DNA from: Methanosarcina sp. MTP4
Lineage (GTDB): Archaea; Halobacteriota; Methanosarcinia; Methanosarcinales; Methanosarcinaceae
DNA length: 64,000 nt
Direction: 5' to 3'
Assembly: GCF_000970045.1 (NCBI RefSeq)
Contig: NZ_CP009505.1
Location: 4,054,808-4,118,807 of the forward strand
The notes beneath the pieces are model-generated. The model saw only the letters and a list, made by a program, of their open reading frames with translations. It ran no database searches and was not told the DNA's origin. This document shows positions 1,589 through 10,370 of this stretch, piece after piece; position 1 is the stretch's first letter, and each line of letters opens with the position of its first letter. The translations under genes and the position numbers were made by a program.

Positions 1589-3217
1589 TTATTTTGCTTC
1601 CTTGATCTGGAGGTTGGACATCTCGATAGCACCTTCGGGGCAGATGTTTACGCAGCGGCGGCAACTTGTTCCCAGGCACTTCTGGCTGTCGTATCTGGCT
1701 GTCCGCTTGCCTTCAGCGTCTTCGATTATTTCGATGGCGTTTTCGGGGCATTCTTTTTCGCATTTGTGGCAGTAGATGCACTTGCTCACGGGGACTTCGA
1801 GGTTGATTCCGATTTCTTTGAGGATGGCAAGGCCTTCTGCTCCCACTTCTTCTATATCTTTGCTGACCCGGCGTTCGATTGAGGCATGTTCCAGGGTTTC
1901 GGGGAGGACGGGGATGCCGTACATTTCGAGCATCTGGTTGTACATTTCAAGGGGCATACCCTGGGTCCAGTAGGAGAGTTCGCAGAGATAGAAGTTGTTG
2001 AAGGTTTCGCTGGTCGCCATCATGAGGTGGTCGGCAGTGATCCTTTTGGCGATCTTAATAACGTCTTCGAGCCTGGACCTGTCCATTACCAGTTCCCGGG
2101 CAAGGGCAAGGGAAGTGTTCCCAAACTGAACAATATTCTTTGCAAAACCAGGGGCAGCCCCGAGCTGGCGGGCATCTTCGGCATCCGCATAAGCCCCGGA
2201 GGCTCCGGACATGTAAGCGTATTCCAGGTCTTCATACTTGATGCCGGAGTCCACGATAAGGGTAAGGTGGGCTGCCCTGATTGCCCCAATTGCTTTTCCG
2301 GCTTCTTCCACATCCTTTTCGGTGATTTCGATATCAGGGCCAAGGACCAGTCTGCCGTTTGGCAGGGACGGGGACTTTTCGATAAGGCCGCTTTTCAGCG
2401 CCAGAGCAAAAGCCGAGATCACACCGGTGCCCGTTATGCCCACAGCTTCGTAGCCGTAGAACTCCTTTATGTCCCCGGTGAGAGGATTAATGAGATAAGC
2501 GTCCCTTTTTTCCATCTCCTTGTCAAGGACAATAATCCTCCAGTACTCCCCTTCGGGCTTTACATCGCAGATCGCTCCGGGGCTTGCGAGCATCCCGCAG
2601 CTTATTCCCTGTCCTTCAATGGCAGGACCGGCAGCTGCACTTGCCGTGATTATCCGCTCCCCGATCTTCAGGGCCATCTCGGCATTTGTCCCGTAATCAG
2701 TAACAAGAGCAGGTTTAGTCTGGTTCAGGAAGTCAGTTTCAAGCATCATTGCCAGGGCGTCTGCCCCGATCTCATGCTTGATTGCGGGAGGGACGATAAC
2801 TTCGCAGTTAGGCATATCCAGGTCTTTAAAGAGCTCGGAAGCTGGGAACACACGGGCGTCTCTTTTTACATTTTCCACGCCCAGCTTTTTCTGCTTGTTT
2901 TCTCCGGCGTATGCAAGGTCCCTGATTTCTATGTTCTGGAAAAGGGAAAGCTGGATAGGGTTTCCGCAAACAGCCAGCCGCTCTACTTCGGAGAAGTCAA
3001 TATCGAATTTAAGGAACATTCTCCTGATGGTTTCCAGTATCACCGCATGGGCCACATCCTCTCCGGTTGAGATCGCAAAGTCAAGGTGATCCATGACATT
3101 TCCACCGGGCAGGGGGTGCCCCATGGTAATAACCGTTTTAATGGTTTCTTTCGTTTCAAGCTCAATAAGCTGTGCTCGAAAACCGCTCGTACCCAAATCA
3201 AGTGCTATGCCGTACAT
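1589..3217 (-). CDS. ramA: Corrinoid reductive-activation protein RamA
   Basis: RamA reactivates methylamine corrinoid proteins by ATP-dependent reduction of inactive Co(II) to Co(I). The protein is 542 residues, the usual length. The N-terminal two thirds is an ASKHA-type ATPase domain (MYGIALDLGTSGFRA at the start; VTDYGTNAE in the middle). The last about 65 residues carry two ferredoxin-like clusters: CIYCHKCEKECP at about residue 480, and a variant CLGTSCRRCVNICP at about 517. I chose the ATG at 3217 because GAGGAG sits just upstream and the family starts there; the frame extends further to 3274. It is divergent from mtbA, whose product uses the corrinoid proteins RamA activates. Very secure. 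Confidence 0.95.
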   Translation of the reverse strand: MYGIALDLGTSGFRAQLIELETKETIKTVITMGHPLPGGNVMDHLDFAISTGEDVAHAVILETIRRMFLKFDIDFSEVERLAVCGNPIQLSLFQNIEIRDLAYAGENKQKKLGVENVKRDARVFPASELFKDLDMPNCEVIVPPAIKHEIGADALAMMLETDFLNQTKPALVTDYGTNAEMALKIGERIITASAAAGPAIEGQGISCGMLASPGAICDVKPEGEYWRIIVLDKEMEKRDAYLINPLTGDIKEFYGYEAVGITGTGVISAFALALKSGLIEKSPSLPNGRLVLGPDIEITEKDVEEAGKAIGAIRAAHLTLIVDSGIKYEDLEYAYMSGASGAYADAEDARQLGAAPGFAKNIVQFGNTSLALARELVMDRSRLEDVIKIAKRITADHLMMATSETFNNFYLCELSYWTQGMPLEMYNQMLEMYGIPVLPETLEHASIERRVSKDIEEVGAEGLAILKEIGINLEVPVSKCIYCHKCEKECPENAIEIIEDAEGKRTARYDSQKCLGTSCRRCVNICPEGAIEMSNLQIKEAK

Positions 3218-3903
3218 TTTTTTATTCTCCTCAATGTTTTCCCGAAGTGTGCATGATTTCGAGGCATCCGGCACTCTGGATTACCCCTTAAAGGATTGGA
3301 AATAAGAAGGGAAAGAATTCAAATCCGAATACTGGAACAGCAAGGGTTAAGATATATGGCCCTATATTTATATAACCGATAGTATATATTAGTATACCTG
3401 TTAGTATACCGACATGATTTTGCTTTCAGTCCTTGCTTTCAGTCCTTGATAAGTATTAAGCTCTTTATCGCAATTCCCTTTCCATTAATGAAAAGCCTTT
3501 TTGTTCCGAGAACTTTTCTAATTGGACCTGAAGCTTCAAACAAATATTCAAAACTTTACCAATTCGATTTTTTAATTAGAGTTTTCCAATTAGTTTTCCA
3601 TTAGAGTTTTCCAATTTTAGATACTGTTCAATTAACTATTTCAATTCAATTTTATTTTATATTTATGCCTGCATGCCTCAGTCTTTAGTTAAGCCAGCAA
3701 ATCATTATATACATTAATTTTTCCATAGTTATCAGACTGATATAACAAATGTACTTGTTTTCAGAGAATTTAAGGTCAATCAAGATTAAAATTGACATAT
3801 ATTTATAATATAACATTTAATCAATATACAATAATACATATTTATTTATACTATGATTTTTTGATATTAGTCGCTGTTCTTATACTAGAGAGAGGGAAAA
3901 TAA
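3218..3903. promoter_or_regulatory. ramA / mtbA divergent intergenic region
   Basis: This 686-base AT-rich spacer separates two divergent genes. On the minus strand, a TATA-like element at 3360-3377 (TTATATAAATATAG read leftward) suits ramA. Several TATA-like stretches on the plus strand (about 3790-3850) could serve mtbA, which is preceded by the purine-rich GAGAGAGGGAAAA ribosome site. No ORF in the spacer looks real. Confidence 0.6.
3380..3409 (-). promoter_or_regulatory. Phased TAGTATAY repeats next to the ramA TATA box
   Basis: TAGTATAT at 3380 and TAGTATAC at 3390 and 3402 are direct repeats spaced 10 and 12 bases. That places them on roughly the same helix face, immediately upstream of the putative ramA TATA element. 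They look like a transcription-factor site, but no factor can be named. Confidence 0.5.
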
Positions 3904-4923
3904 ATGACAGAATACACACCGAAAGAAAGGTTATATCGTGCATTAAGGAAACAGCCAGTTGACAGAATGCCTTCCGCCTGCTTCACACAGACGGCAACTG
4001 TTGAGCAGATGGAAGCTTGCGGAGCCCACTGGCCTGAAGCCCATGAAGACGCAGAGAAAATGGCAACTCTTGCGGAAGCTGGGCACACAGTCATCGGTTT
4101 TGAAGCTGTGAGAGTACCTTTTGACATTACCGCTGAAGCTGAGCTCTTCGGTTGCGGCATCAAAGCTGGCGACCACAAGCAACAGCCTTCGGTCATCAAG
4201 CACAGCGTAAAGAACCTGGAAGACCTCGACAAGATCAGGGACTATAGCCTTGACGAAGGCAGGGTATCCAAGGTCCTCGAAGCAGTCAAGATCCTCAGTG
4301 AAAAATACGGGAAAGAACTCCCGATCATCGGATCCATGATCGGTCCTTTCTCCCTTGCCCAGCATATCAATGGAGATGCCTGGTTCGGGAACCTTTTCAC
4401 AGGGGAACCCATTGTCGCCGAACTCCTTGACTTCTGCGCTGACTTCAACGTAGCATACGCAAAAGAAATGGTCAAGAACGGAGCAGACACCCTGGCCATC
4501 ATTGACCCCACCGCAAGCTACGAACTCATCGGCGGAGAATTCTACGAGAAATTCGCCCTCCCCTACCAGAAGAGGCTCGTGGACGCAATGAAGGAACTCG
4601 ATGTAGCCTCCGTCCTCCACATCTGCGGCAACACCACCAACGGGCTTGCAATCATGGAAAAGACCGGCGTGGAAGGAATCAGCGTGGACCAGAGAGTCGA
4701 CATCGCAACCGCAAAGGGCAACGTTGAAAACACACTCATTATCGGAAACCTCGACCCTGTAGCAAACCTCTGGAACGGCACTCCAGAAACCGTCGCCGAA
4801 GAATCCAAGAAGATTCTCGACGCAGGAGTCGGACTGCTTGCCCCTGGCTGCGGGATTGTCAGCATGACCCCTACCGCCAACCTTCAGAAGATGGTCGAGT
4901 GTACCATCAACTACAAATACTGA
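3904..4923 (+). CDS. mtbA: Methylcobamide:CoM methyltransferase MtbA (methylamine-specific)
   Basis: MtbA transfers the methyl group from methylated methylamine corrinoid proteins to coenzyme M, giving methyl-CoM for methanogenesis. The protein is 339 residues with a uroporphyrinogen-decarboxylase-like TIM-barrel fold. The family's zinc ligands are visible as His239-x-Cys241 (VLHICG) and Cys316 (APGCG). It starts with an ATG after GAGAGAGGGAAAATAA. The neighbours ramA and mtmCB favour MtbA over the methanol paralogue MtaA. A hairpin and T-run terminator follows directly. Confidence 0.93.
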
Positions 4924-5962: not shown

Positions 5963-6616
5963 ATGGCAAACGAAGAAATGTTTGACAAGCTTCGCGACTC
6001 TATTGTTAATCAGGATATCGCGGGATGTGTACAGTTAACCCAGGAAGCTCTTTCTGCTGGAATCCCAGCACTTGATATTATCACAAAGGGCCTTTCTGCA
6101 GGGATGAAGATCGTCGGAGACAAGTTTGAAGCCGCCGAAATCTTCCTGCCCCAGATAATGATGTCTGCAAAAGCAATGAGCGGGGCAATGGAAATCCTTA
6201 CTCCCGAACTTGAGAAGACCAGGAAGGAAGGAGAAGAAACCGGGCTTGCAATCACTTTTGTTGCAGAAGGAGACATCCACGACATCGGGCACCGCCTTGT
6301 TTCAACCATGCTCGGAGCAAATGGTTTTGATATACTCGACCTCGGAACCGACGTCCTCAACGAGACTGTTGTAGAAGAGGTTGCAAAGCACAAGGGAGAA
6401 AAAGTCATTCTTGTAGGTTCCGCCCTTATGACCACCTCCATGCTCGGCCAGAAGGACCTCATGGATCTGCTCAGGGAAGAAAACCTGAGAGACAGCGTAA
6501 AGTGCATGTTCGGAGGAGCCCCTGTTTCTGAAGGCTGGATCGAAGAAATCGGAGCAGACGCAACCGCAGAGAACGCTGCAGAAGCCGCAAAAGTAGCACT
6601 TGAAGTTATGAAATAA
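5963..6616 (+). CDS. mtmC: Monomethylamine corrinoid protein MtmC
   Basis: MtmC carries the methyl group on its cobalt between MtmB and MtbA in the cytoplasm. It has 217 residues: an N-terminal four-helix cap (about 1-90), then a Rossmann-type cobalamin domain. The lower-axial ligand motif is D104-x-H106-x-x-G109 (GDIHDIG). A strong GGAGG lies 7 bases before the ATG. mtmB starts 15 bases after the stop, so the two are co-transcribed. Confidence 0.93.
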   Translation: MANEEMFDKLRDSIVNQDIAGCVQLTQEALSAGIPALDIITKGLSAGMKIVGDKFEAAEIFLPQIMMSAKAMSGAMEILTPELEKTRKEGEETGLAITFVAEGDIHDIGHRLVSTMLGANGFDILDLGTDVLNETVVEEVAKHKGEKVILVGSALMTTSMLGQKDLMDLLREENLRDSVKCMFGGAPVSEGWIEEIGADATAENAAEAAKVALEVMK

Positions 6617-6631
6617 TCGGGGGAACCAGAC

Positions 6632-8008
6632 ATGACATTCAGAAAATCATTTGATTGCTACGATTTCTACGACAGAGCAAAAGTCGGTGAGAAATGCACC
6701 CAGGACGACTGGGACCTCATGACAATTCCCATGAAGTCCATGGAGCTTAAGCAGAAGTACGGGCTTGACTTCAAGGGAGAGATCATCCCTACCGACAAGG
6801 ACATGATGGAAAAGCTCTTCCAGGCAGGGTTTGAGATGCTCCTCGACTGCGGTATCTACTGTACTGACACCCACAGGATCGTCAAGTACACCGAAGAAGA
6901 GATCTGGGACGCACTCAACAACATCCAGACGGAATTCACCCTCGGGACCGGTAGGGATTCAGTTCAGTTCAAGAAGAGAAGCATCGGAGACAAGAGGAAG
7001 CCAATTGTCCAGGGAGGTCCTACCGGGTCCCCGATTTCCGAAGAAGTCTTCATGCCAGTCCACATGAGCTACGCCCTGGAAAAGGAAGTAGACACCATTG
7101 TAGACGGTGTTATGACCTCCGTCCGCGGCAAGCCTCCAATTCCGGGAAGCCCCTATGAAGTCCTGGCATCAAAGACCGAAACCAGGCTCATCAAGCAGGC
7201 AGCAGCAATGGCCGGCAGGCCAGGCATGGGCATATAGGGCCCTGAGACCTCCCTGTCCGCTCAGGGAAACATTGCCTCTGACTGCTACGGTGGACAGATC
7301 TCCTCTGACAGCCACGAAGTCTCCCAGCTCAACGAGCTGAAGATCGACCTCGATGCAATCGCAGTAATTGCTCACTACAAAGGCAACAGCGATATTATCA
7401 TGGACGAACAGATGCCAATCTTTGGCGGATACGCCGGCGGCATTGAAGAGACCACAATCGTGGACATTGCAACCCACATCAACGCATTCGTCATGAGCAG
7501 CGCAAGCTGGCACCTTGACGGCCCTGTCCACATCCGCTGGGGATCCACCAACACCAGGGAAACCCTGACAATCGCAGGCTGGGCATGTGCAACTATCTCC
7601 GAGTTTACAGACATCCTCTCCGGGAACCAGTACTACCCATGTGCAGGCCCCTGTACCGAGATGTGTCTCCTCGAAGCTTCCGCCCAGTCCATGACTGACA
7701 CCGCTTCAGGCCGTGAAATCCTCTCCGGTGTGGCAGCCGCAAAGGGTGTCGTCACCGACAAGACCACAGGTATGGAAGCCAGGATGATGGGAGAAGTCGC
7801 AAGGGCAACCGCAGGCATGGACATCGCAGAAGTCAACGGAATCCTCGACAAGCTCGTCGGCCTCTACGAGAAGAACTATGCAAACGCACCCGCAGGCAAG
7901 ACCTTCCAGGAATGCTACGACGTTAAGACCGTAACACCCACGGACGAATACATGCAGGTCTACGACGGAGCAAGGAAGCAGCTCGAAGACCTCGGACTCG
8001 TATTCTAA
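6632..8008 (+). CDS. mtmB: Monomethylamine methyltransferase MtmB (pyrrolysine protein)
   Basis: MtmB methylates MtmC with monomethylamine, the first step of methylamine methanogenesis. The frame runs 6632-7234, meets TAG at 7235-7237 and continues in frame to TAA at 8006-8008. This gives 458 residues with pyrrolysine at 202, matching the family's length and amber position (flank RPGMGI-O-GPETS). Without amber decoding the product would be a 201-residue fragment. The sequence strongly resembles known MtmB (start MTFRKSFDCYDFYDRAKVGE). GGGGGA precedes the ATG. A hairpin and T-run terminator follows. Confidence 0.95.
7235..7266 (+). promoter_or_regulatory. mtmB: Amber (pyrrolysine) codon and downstream stem (PYLIS region)
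   Basis: TAG at 7235-7237 is followed by CCCTGA (7240-7245), which can pair with TCAGGG (7261-7266). A structure at this place in mtmB mRNAs has been called PYLIS. Published work suggests it is not strictly required for amber decoding, so any role is modest. Confidence 0.6.
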
Positions 8009-8035
8009 ACTGACATCCCTAAGGCAATAAACCCG

Positions 8036-8070
8036 GCCGGCGAGATAGCCTCGTCGGCTAATTTTTTTTT
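8036..8070 (+). terminator. Hairpin plus T-run after mtmB
   Basis: The stem GCCGGCGAG/CTCGTCGGC (9 pairs, one G-U) with loop ATAGC is followed by nine T residues at 8062-8070. It separates mtmCB from the permease unit. Confidence 0.8.
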
Positions 8071-8188
8071 AAAAACATGGGCAAAACCCTTAAATAAGTC
8101 AGACACGCTTGGTTTGGAATATTTTTAATGAATAGACAAAGGAATGCAAAAAAACACTGTTTAAAAACATATCGGGGGATATGAGAAA

Positions 8189-8290
8189 ATGGACATCTGG
8201 ACTATCATAAACGGTATGATATATCTCCTTGCTTTTGCATTGATGGCCTGGGTTTTGCTGGACGCCAGCAAGATTTCAAAAAGAAGCTGA
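8189..8290 (+). CDS. 33-residue single-pass membrane peptide upstream of the permease
   Basis: The ATG at 8189 opens 33 codons ending TGA at 8290. GGGGAT lies about 12 bases upstream. The peptide is MDIWTIINGM, then a hydrophobic run (IYLLAFALMAWVLL), then a short basic tail DASKISKRS: one inward-facing transmembrane helix. It ends 16 bases before the permease ATG, so it is probably co-transcribed and translationally linked. I know no family for it. It resembles small accessory subunits of transporters only in size and topology. Confidence 0.6.
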   Translation: MDIWTIINGMIYLLAFALMAWVLLDASKISKRS

Positions 8291-8306
8291 ATGAGAGAGG
8301 GATAAA

Positions 8307-9719
8307 ATGTCTGAAAACTCTGAATCTGCCAGCCTAGTGAAGACTCTGCGCCCATTCCACGTATGGGCTCTTGGAGTCGGGATCGTGCTGGTCGGAGAGT
8401 ACATGGGCTGGAACTTCACCGTCGCAAAAGGAGGAGTTCTGGGTTCCCTGCTTGCCATGCTGGTTGCAGGAACCATGTATGTTATAATTTCTCTCTGTGC
8501 CAGTGAACTCGGATCAGCCACAAAACTTGCAGGAGGACCCTACGACTGGGCAAGACTATTTATAGGACCCGGAGCAGCCGCCAGTGTCGGGCTTGCGGTG
8601 TACATGGAATACATCGCTCTTGAAGCTGCGGACGCTATTGTGGTCGCATTTATTGCGTCGGAGGTATTTCCACAGTTACAGGTTTTCCCTGTGACCCTGC
8701 TAGTTATTGCACTATTGACATTTATTAACTACCGGGGTGTGGTTGCAGCTTTAACCCTGAACTTCTTCCTGACCATGATAGCCTTTATTGCAATTGTGGT
8801 ATTCTTCTTCGCAACCGCCTTCGGAACAGTGGACATTCACCCTGAATATCTCTTCCAGGGGGCTTTGCCAAACGGCATGATAGGCCTATTTGCAGCGTTG
8901 CAATTCGGGCCATGGTTCTACCTGGGAATAGAAGGGGCAGCGATGTGTGCCGAAGAATGTAAGCACCCGTCAAGGGCAGTCCCGCTCGGGCAGCAGGCAG
9001 GGATGATCACCCTCCTGATGGGAGCAGCTATGACCCTATACCTCTGTTCAGTGCTGATCCCCGCTAACATGCTAGGGGTTTCCGTGTATCCGCTCTTTGA
9101 AGCGGCACAGAACAGCGGTATATTAATCTTCATCGCCCTCCTGGGACTCGGGACACTCCTTACCTGCCTTGCAAGTGCAAACGGTTGTGTTTGTGACTCT
9201 TCACGCTCCTGGTTTGCACTCTCCAGAGACCACTACGTATCTTCCTGGTTCTCGGCGGTGCACCCGAAGTATAACACCCCTTACAGGGCTGTGATCTTCA
9301 CAATGCCGGTAGCAATCGGCTTTGCTTTCAGCGGTTTCCTGGACCAGGTCATTACCTTCTCCATCGTCTCGGGGCTGCTCTGCTATGTGCTGATCCCGTT
9401 TGCCCTGATCCGCTTCAGGACCCTCTTCCCGGAGACAACAAGCAAAGTCCGTCCCTTTGCAGGACCCCTCCAGCCCTACATCGCCTACTTTGCAATCGCA
9501 ATTGCCATTACGATCCTTTCAACCCTCTTCTGGGGCTACAAGTATAACCTGATCTTCGGGTTCGTATTCTACGGCATTGCGTACTTCTACTTCAGCCACA
9601 AGCACAAGACTTCAAAGGCAGAAAACAACTGGGCTGAAATGGGCTGGCCCGAACCCAGAGGGTCAGAAAATGCGAGGATAGGAAAGGAGGTGATTGGAGT
9701 TGAGTTCAGCAAAGATTAA
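8307..9719 (+). CDS. mtmP: Methylamine permease MtmP (APC superfamily)
   Basis: This 470-residue integral membrane protein has about 12 hydrophobic segments and APC-family character: a glycine-rich first helix (GVGIVLVGEYMGWN), GIEGAAMCAEECKHPSRAVP in the region that usually reads G-E-x-x-x-P-R-x-x-P, and a charged cytoplasmic C-terminal tail. Its position behind mtmCB and between tiny membrane proteins supports monomethylamine uptake; substrate specificity is inferred from this context. The start ATG follows AGAGAGGGATAAA. Confidence 0.85.
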   Translation: MSENSESASLVKTLRPFHVWALGVGIVLVGEYMGWNFTVAKGGVLGSLLAMLVAGTMYVIISLCASELGSATKLAGGPYDWARLFIGPGAAASVGLAVYMEYIALEAADAIVVAFIASEVFPQLQVFPVTLLVIALLTFINYRGVVAALTLNFFLTMIAFIAIVVFFFATAFGTVDIHPEYLFQGALPNGMIGLFAALQFGPWFYLGIEGAAMCAEECKHPSRAVPLGQQAGMITLLMGAAMTLYLCSVLIPANMLGVSVYPLFEAAQNSGILIFIALLGLGTLLTCLASANGCVCDSSRSWFALSRDHYVSSWFSAVHPKYNTPYRAVIFTMPVAIGFAFSGFLDQVITFSIVSGLLCYVLIPFALIRFRTLFPETTSKVRPFAGPLQPYIAYFAIAIAITILSTLFWGYKYNLIFGFVFYGIAYFYFSHKHKTSKAENNWAEMGWPEPRGSENARIGKEVIGVEFSKD

Positions 9720-9975
9720 CCAGGAGATGGAAAGCAAGTACCACAGCAAACTGACAGGAGACAGTATCCTGGTTGCAGGAATGCTCTTACTGCTTGTAAG
9801 TGTGGAACTCTTTGTGATCAGTAAGATCCTGGGGGCTACATGGGAGATAGCTTCGGACTTCTTCTATCTCTATGTGATCTTCTTCGGGCTGATAGTTGTA
9901 GTCGAAACGATAGGTTGCCTGCGGGTACGCGACTCCATCAAGAAGCACATGTTTGAGTTCGCCTACTACGATTGA
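9700..9975 (+). CDS. Small two-helix membrane protein following mtmP
   Basis: The frame overlaps the last codons of mtmP. The near-perfect AGGAGGTGA (GGAGG at 9686-9690) best fits a TTG at 9700 (9-base spacer, 91 residues). A TTG at 9694 and an ATG at 9727 are alternatives. Two hydrophobic segments (ILVAGMLLLLVSVELFVISKILG and FFYLYVIFFGLIVVVETIG, described in part) predict a hairpin membrane protein. I recognise no family. Its overlap with mtmP suggests it belongs to the transporter. Confidence 0.7.
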   Translation: MSSAKINQEMESKYHSKLTGDSILVAGMLLLLVSVELFVISKILGATWEIASDFFYLYVIFFGLIVVVETIGCLRVRDSIKKHMFEFAYYD

Positions 9976-9989
9976 GGAGGCTGAAAGAA

Positions 9990-10241
9990 ATGGCAGAAAT
10001 TACCAAAAAAGAAAAAAGTGCCCTTGCAGAGGCCTTTGATATCATATTCATCTTCGTCCTGGCCTTCGCTTGCGTCGTGGTTCCCACGGTGCTCCAGGGA
10101 GCAGTGCTCGTTTCCTGGGACGAAGGTGGAGCAGGCATAGGCTTCGTCTGGGACCCGGTCGGCTTCTTCAGCTTCGTGCTTGTAATCATCGCATTCTTTG
10201 TGGTAATCCTCCACCACTCGGTGAAGCACTACAAGTACTGA
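9990..10241 (+). CDS. Small membrane protein, last gene of the mtmP unit
   Basis: The ATG at 9990 is preceded by GAGGAGG (9974-9980), giving 83 residues. The frame is open back to 9972, but the ribosome site decides for 9990. The N-terminus is charged (MAEITKKEKSALAEA). Two hydrophobic segments (about 16-40 and 58-75) are separated by an acidic, glycine-rich loop (SWDEGGAGIGFVWDP). No family is recognised. It starts 14 bases after the preceding small membrane gene. Confidence 0.7.
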   Translation: MAEITKKEKSALAEAFDIIFIFVLAFACVVVPTVLQGAVLVSWDEGGAGIGFVWDPVGFFSFVLVIIAFFVVILHHSVKHYKY

Positions 10242-10324: not shown

Positions 10325-10332
10325 CTGTTGAA

Positions 10333-10370
10333 CTGCCTGAAAGAGGGTTCAGGCAGTCAACGTTTTTTTT
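10333..10370 (+). terminator. Hairpin plus T-run ending the permease unit
   Basis: The perfect 9-bp stem CTGCCTGAA/TTCAGGCAG with loop AGAGGG (10333-10356) is followed by eight T residues at 10363-10370. Confidence 0.85.

Follow-up and report, generated by a model that had tools for sequence, protein, structure and literature searches.

The genes that follow the monomethylamine methyltransferase operon in Methanosarcina sp. MTP4 raise the question of whether an APC-family permease works there alone or as the core of a larger carrier. In the window, meaning the whole 64,000-nucleotide stretch of DNA that was analysed, an initial annotation had placed a 33-residue reading frame upstream and 91- and 83-residue reading frames downstream of this permease, and we find all three, together with the permease, between positions 8189 and 10241. 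We call the four products A, P, B and C, in the order of their genes. Our preferred reading, to which we assign a probability of about 0.78, is that P has A, B and C as its dedicated accessory subunits, the four proteins together making up a carrier that brings in methylammonium for the methylamine pathway encoded next to it.

The A-P-B-C locus and its small genes

The features of the window that bear on this question are as follows.

1592-3274, minus strand: ramA (over the TIGR04270 cut-off)
3904-4923: mtbA (over the NF041608 cut-off)
5963-6616, plus strand: mtmC, corrinoid protein (over the TIGR02370 cut-off)
6632-8008, plus strand: monomethylamine methyltransferase, which we take to be mtmB because of its place behind mtmC and of what is known about such proteins, rather than from a family search; in-frame TAG at 7235-7237, 458 codons with the TAG read through
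8035-8059, plus strand: terminator-like hairpin with T-run, between mtmB and A (scan hit)
8084-8096, plus strand: putative archaeal TATA-type promoter element of consensus type, AAACCCTTAAATA, ahead of A (from the sequence and an alignment of relatives)
8189-8290, plus strand: A, 33-residue single-helix membrane protein, ATG start
8307-9719, plus strand: P, APC-family permease core of 470 residues, ATG start (over the Pfam PF00324 cut-off)
9700-9975, plus strand: B, 91-residue two-helix membrane protein, TTG start
9990-10241, plus strand: C, 83-residue two-helix membrane protein, ATG start
10332-10357, plus strand: terminator-like hairpin 3' of C (scan hit)

The four genes are closely packed, with gaps of 16 nt between A and P and 14 nt between B and C, and the last 20 nt of P are also the first 20 of B. 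The upstream hairpin, its T-run and the TATA-like box (window 8035-8105) are recognisable in ten Methanosarcina relatives. Given that hairpins flank the genes on both sides and that a conserved TATA-like box precedes A, the signals suggest that A-P-B-C is probably a transcription unit of its own, with A as its first gene.

Ribosome sites had been proposed for all three small genes. They are clear for B, whose Shine-Dalgarno-like site, AAAGGAGGTGA, lies within the end of P, and for C (GAGGAGG), and P has AGAGAGG; the site of A is weak, since only GGGGGAT is present upstream of it. Averaged over relatives, the longest match to the anti-Shine-Dalgarno sequence is 5.9 for B, 4.9 for C, 4.2 for P and 3.0 for A, against a background of 1.4. 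In pooled data from 12 Methanosarcina relatives, A has a pN/pS of 0.20, B of 0.28, C of 0.13 and P of 0.09; shifted into either wrong frame, the small ORFs show values of 1.0-2.2 in the same relatives. These low in-frame ratios indicate that the small ORFs did not arise by chance and that A, B and C are real genes under purifying selection.

None of the archaeal and bacterial A, B and C proteins examined scores over the cut-off of any Pfam or NCBIfam model, and comparison with PDB sequences likewise gave nothing over cut-off, the few weak matches looking like chance. The distribution of charges suggests that A has its N terminus outside and its C terminus inside, and that B and C are hairpins with both termini inside, the bias being slight for B.

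Linkage of the four genes in archaea and bacteria

Relatives of P were found by a scan at 80 loci. In 47 of 48 Methanosarcinaceae loci the genes stand in the order A-P-B-C, and in the one that is incomplete (L047) A is present and the contig ends before C. Across 112 Methanosarcinaceae genomes, P and B are each found in 68 and C and A each in 67, and the four are otherwise jointly absent; the mismatches fall mostly on fragmentary contigs. In two genomes (G004 and G088) A is broken and P is absent, and the second copy of the unit in another (G016) is decaying as a set, with a stop in C, a fragment of B that also contains a stop, and no P. The initial annotation had tied its proposal to the small frames being conserved beside the permease and under purifying selection, and the 47 of 48 loci and the ratios of 0.20, 0.28 and 0.13 bear it out on both counts.

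The MTP4 genome contains a second full A-P-B-C set at 2.90 Mb (L084 and L002; G000:C1, about 2.902 Mb), whose P is 81% identical to that of the first and which has no mtmCB nearby, so A-P-B-C can exist apart from the methyltransferase genes. Similar sets at four other loci (L016, L017, L018 and L048) also have no mtmCB within reach.

Relatives of P that are about 45% identical occur in Proteobacteria, Desulfobacterota and Firmicutes. At 34 bacterial loci from the same scan, three small membrane ORFs lie directly upstream of P, each time in the order B-C-A-P. This order is found in 54 of 58 bacterial loci; of the four incomplete ones, three run off the end of a contig and the fourth, L132, has no A. 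Complete sets were also found outside the first scan, in 6 of 9 loci of a Firmicutes sample, 5 of 6 of a Gammaproteobacteria sample and 9 of 9 plasmid loci. Taking archaea and bacteria together, all three partners are present at 101 of 106 loci with a close relative of P, the other five comprising four that are cut by contig ends and the one without A; these counts include related genomes and so do not represent independent events, and some of the profiles were built from counted loci, with the Firmicutes, Gammaproteobacteria and plasmid sets lying mostly outside them. The locus without a recognisable A is a divergent Firmicutes one in which P, B and C are present and C resembles the archaeal form (LLLQGAVLVGEGG). 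Searched at the DNA level, E. coli genomes gave no match to the bacterial unit.

Profile-profile alignment with hhalign links the archaeal to the bacterial proteins with probabilities of 96.8% for A (E = 2e-10), 97.3% for C (E = 2e-11) and 67.9% for B (E = 5e-5), and the three B-C cross comparisons all fall below 5%. On these alignments the archaeal and bacterial forms of A, B and C are homologous families, with the weakest link for B, which is also the least conserved of the partners. Among 293 Rhodobacterales genomes, the 10 that contain a close relative of P are exactly the 10 that contain C, and C is missing from the three genomes whose relatives of P are all distant.

At five bacterial loci (L052, which comes from the same genome as L097, L128, L129, L130 and L140) B and C are fused into a single protein, L128 to L130 being close relatives of one another. 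Because of these fusions, B and C probably act as one module. A structure model of a natural B-C fusion has helices as expected, with pLDDT 55 and pTM 0.40, values too poor for helix packing to be read from it. On pSymB of Sinorhizobium meliloti Ak57 (L157:5791-7365), A and P lie in one frame with the stop of A disrupted; this apparent fusion seems to rest on a single-base difference from relatives at that stop, which may be a sequencing error, and we did not count it.

Two further genes are conserved 3' of P in Proteobacteria, namely X (about 230 residues) and Y (about 90-105 residues, a membrane protein), for example at L060:7363-8049 and L062:8042-8356. Y-like ORFs are also seen at some Desulfobacterota and Firmicutes loci. 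Neither X nor Y has a Pfam or NCBIfam match over cut-off.

The permease core and its likely substrate

P scores over the Pfam cut-offs for APC proteins (142.1 bits against 24.6 for PF00324, and 79.3 against 27 for PF13520). Its best NCBIfam model is TIGR00908, the APC family ethanolamine permease (1.1e-63), with a score far below the curated cut-off of that model (215.7 against 381.75 bits). A structure model of P (pLDDT 74, pTM 0.76) resembles BasC, LAT1, AdiC and GkApcT among PDB entries, with TM-scores of about 0.7-0.77, and P matches LAT1 in sequence at 6e-16. As modelled, P has the APC fold of the LeuT type.

The permeases that occur with A, B and C share two features. In TM1 they have G-[EQ]-[YF]-M-G-W-N where LAT1 in the alignment has G-S-G, and P and permeases of the TIGR00908 type have in common a similar motif, G-[ED]-[YF]-x-G-W, near the same position. 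The G-S-G motif of known APC carriers binds the carboxylate of the amino acid. Its loss therefore fits a simple amine as substrate; the distant ethanolamine-type permeases have a motif like that of the partnered ones. At the C-terminal end of P (window 9650-9700) lies a W-P-x-P tail that the archaeal and bacterial partnered permeases have in common, a few of them in variant form. Unlike P, the TIGR00908-type distant relatives examined have neither the partners nor this tail: 14 of them, ethanolamine-permease-like and about 28-32% identical to P, have no A, B or C, and the W-P-x-P tail was not found in those examined. Some of these distant relatives adjoin an apparent ethanolamine ammonia-lyase gene. 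From this distribution we regard the tail as a candidate docking site.

The genes around the unit point to methylamine. In methanogens, mtmB lies upstream of A-P-B-C wherever the contig extends far enough, except in the second paralogue group. At 19 of 27 proteobacterial loci, matches to gmaS and mgsA are found no more than about 6 kb away. In Paracoccus aminophilus the unit on pAMI6 adjoins the published mgsABC-gmaS operon (PMC4543880), and its annotation there lists three hypothetical proteins and an 'amino acid permease'. Given that the neighbours are mtmCB in methanogens and gmaS-mgsA in Proteobacteria, two unrelated methylamine pathways, as judged by gene neighbourhood, share the same unit. 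It is from this genomic context that we infer methylamine to be the substrate of the P unit. The substrate may vary, since gmaS-mgsA is missing from the 6 kb or so around the other 8 of the 27 proteobacterial loci, and the second archaeal set also lacks such neighbours. In the genome paper of Methanohalophilus mahii, the adjacent genes Mmah_1133 and Mmah_1134 are listed as 'monomethylamine transporter' (PMC3017947). Within the open-licence PMC literature we found no description of the A-P-B-C unit and no tests of this methylamine importer; papers under subscription may exist.

Precedents and possible roles of the small proteins

The initial annotation reasoned that APC permeases normally work alone, a premise that has exceptions in LAT1-4F2hc and related heterodimers and in GkApcT-MgtS (PMC5803215). 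Its further step, from conserved tiny partners to a multi-subunit amine transporter, is favoured by the linkage described above, and more strongly so with the bacterial loci included; the complex itself keeps its conditional standing. LAT1-4F2hc and b0,+AT-rBAT resemble the proposed carrier in joining an APC core to a partner subunit with a single membrane helix. The heavy chain of heteromeric amino acid transporters has a large ectodomain. A, B and C, by contrast, are tiny, three in number and prokaryotic.

By analogy, GkApcT-MgtS offers the nearest precedent. GkApcT crystallised with MgtS, a 31-residue E. coli peptide, bound to TM5 (PDB 5OQT, 6F34; PMC5803215), and thus combines an APC transporter with a single-helix peptide, as we propose for P and A. 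However, MgtS came from the E. coli expression host, whereas A is the product of a dedicated, linked gene; A has no significant sequence link to any PDB chain; and the N terminus of MgtS is cytoplasmic, the reverse of what the charge distribution suggests for A.

A tiny membrane protein also occurs in a methylamine permease operon of M. mazei, where sORF_05 lies beside the trimethylamine permease MM_1691 and was speculated by the authors of that study to be a permease subunit (PMC11456600). The initial annotation had proposed aligning the small peptides across mtmP, mtbP and mttP loci, but loci of the mttP type do not share these partners: permeases of the MttP type belong to a different superfamily, DMT/EamA (PMC11708041), and tblastn of A, B and C against the mttP loci, run to look for kinship with the small ORF there, yielded nothing above chance. 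In the MTP4 genome, a 49-residue one-helix ORF (L092:12997-13146, about 3.33 Mb) lies downstream of an EamA-type MttP-like permease; it is likely the counterpart of sORF_05 and shows no detectable similarity to A, B or C. The published speculation about a subunit thus concerns only the mttP-type locus, which is unrelated to A-P-B-C.

If A, B and C are subunits of P, the physical complex, its stoichiometry and the roles of its parts that we infer would be the following. The carrier would comprise about 12 + 1 + 2 + 2 helices, with P as the LeuT-fold transport core. A would pack on this core as a single helix, in the way that MgtS lies against TM5 of GkApcT. B and C would form a four-helix module that binds the core, possibly through the W-P-x-P tail of P, and without which assembly, stability or coupling may fail.

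The same linkage and co-occurrence would also be expected if A, B and C were dedicated chaperones, which would serve the assembly or quality control of P by helping it to insert or keeping it stable, and would stand outside the working carrier. GkApcT made without MgtS shows less total transport at similar initial rates (PMC5803215), so that MgtS raised total uptake and left the initial rate unchanged, as such a factor might. Nevertheless, three one- and two-helix proteins that lack soluble domains, match no known family and, in the case of B and C, are fused in some lineages look more like packed subunits, and we consider a role confined to assembly unlikely. Less probable still is that the small proteins regulate P according to nitrogen status or substrate level, as reported for the action of sP36 on AmtB1 in M. 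mazei. Regulation of a transporter by a small protein is thereby known in Methanosarcina (PMC11456600), and methylamine import overlaps with ammonium physiology, but the partners are kept wherever P is, in archaea and bacteria and beside varied pathways, and for a regulator one would expect losses to be more frequent. It is very improbable that A, B and C merely travel with P as membrane proteins of the methylamine operon that have nothing to do with it, for although operon neighbours can persist without interacting and bacteria also keep X and Y downstream of P, the A-P and B-C modules stay together despite differing gene order and unrelated neighbouring pathway genes, and the second paralogue set of MTP4 keeps all four genes without mtmCB.

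Beyond this locus, and with somewhat less assurance than for the subunit reading itself, we lean towards a widespread four-subunit class of APC transporters in bacteria and archaea, in which a methylammonium-selective core of LeuT fold needs a one-helix subunit and a module of two hairpins in order to function. Such a class would have gone unnoticed because its small genes either are called hypothetical or are left without annotation. Both a methane-producing pathway and the bacterial use of methylated amines begin with methylamine uptake, and if P is one part of four, expression of P by itself could fail or mislead. Since the gene sets are small and genera with genetic tools have them (Methanosarcina, Paracoccus and Sinorhizobium), the proposal is directly testable. 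If true, it would add a prokaryotic model for the heteromeric APC transporters, among them human LAT1.
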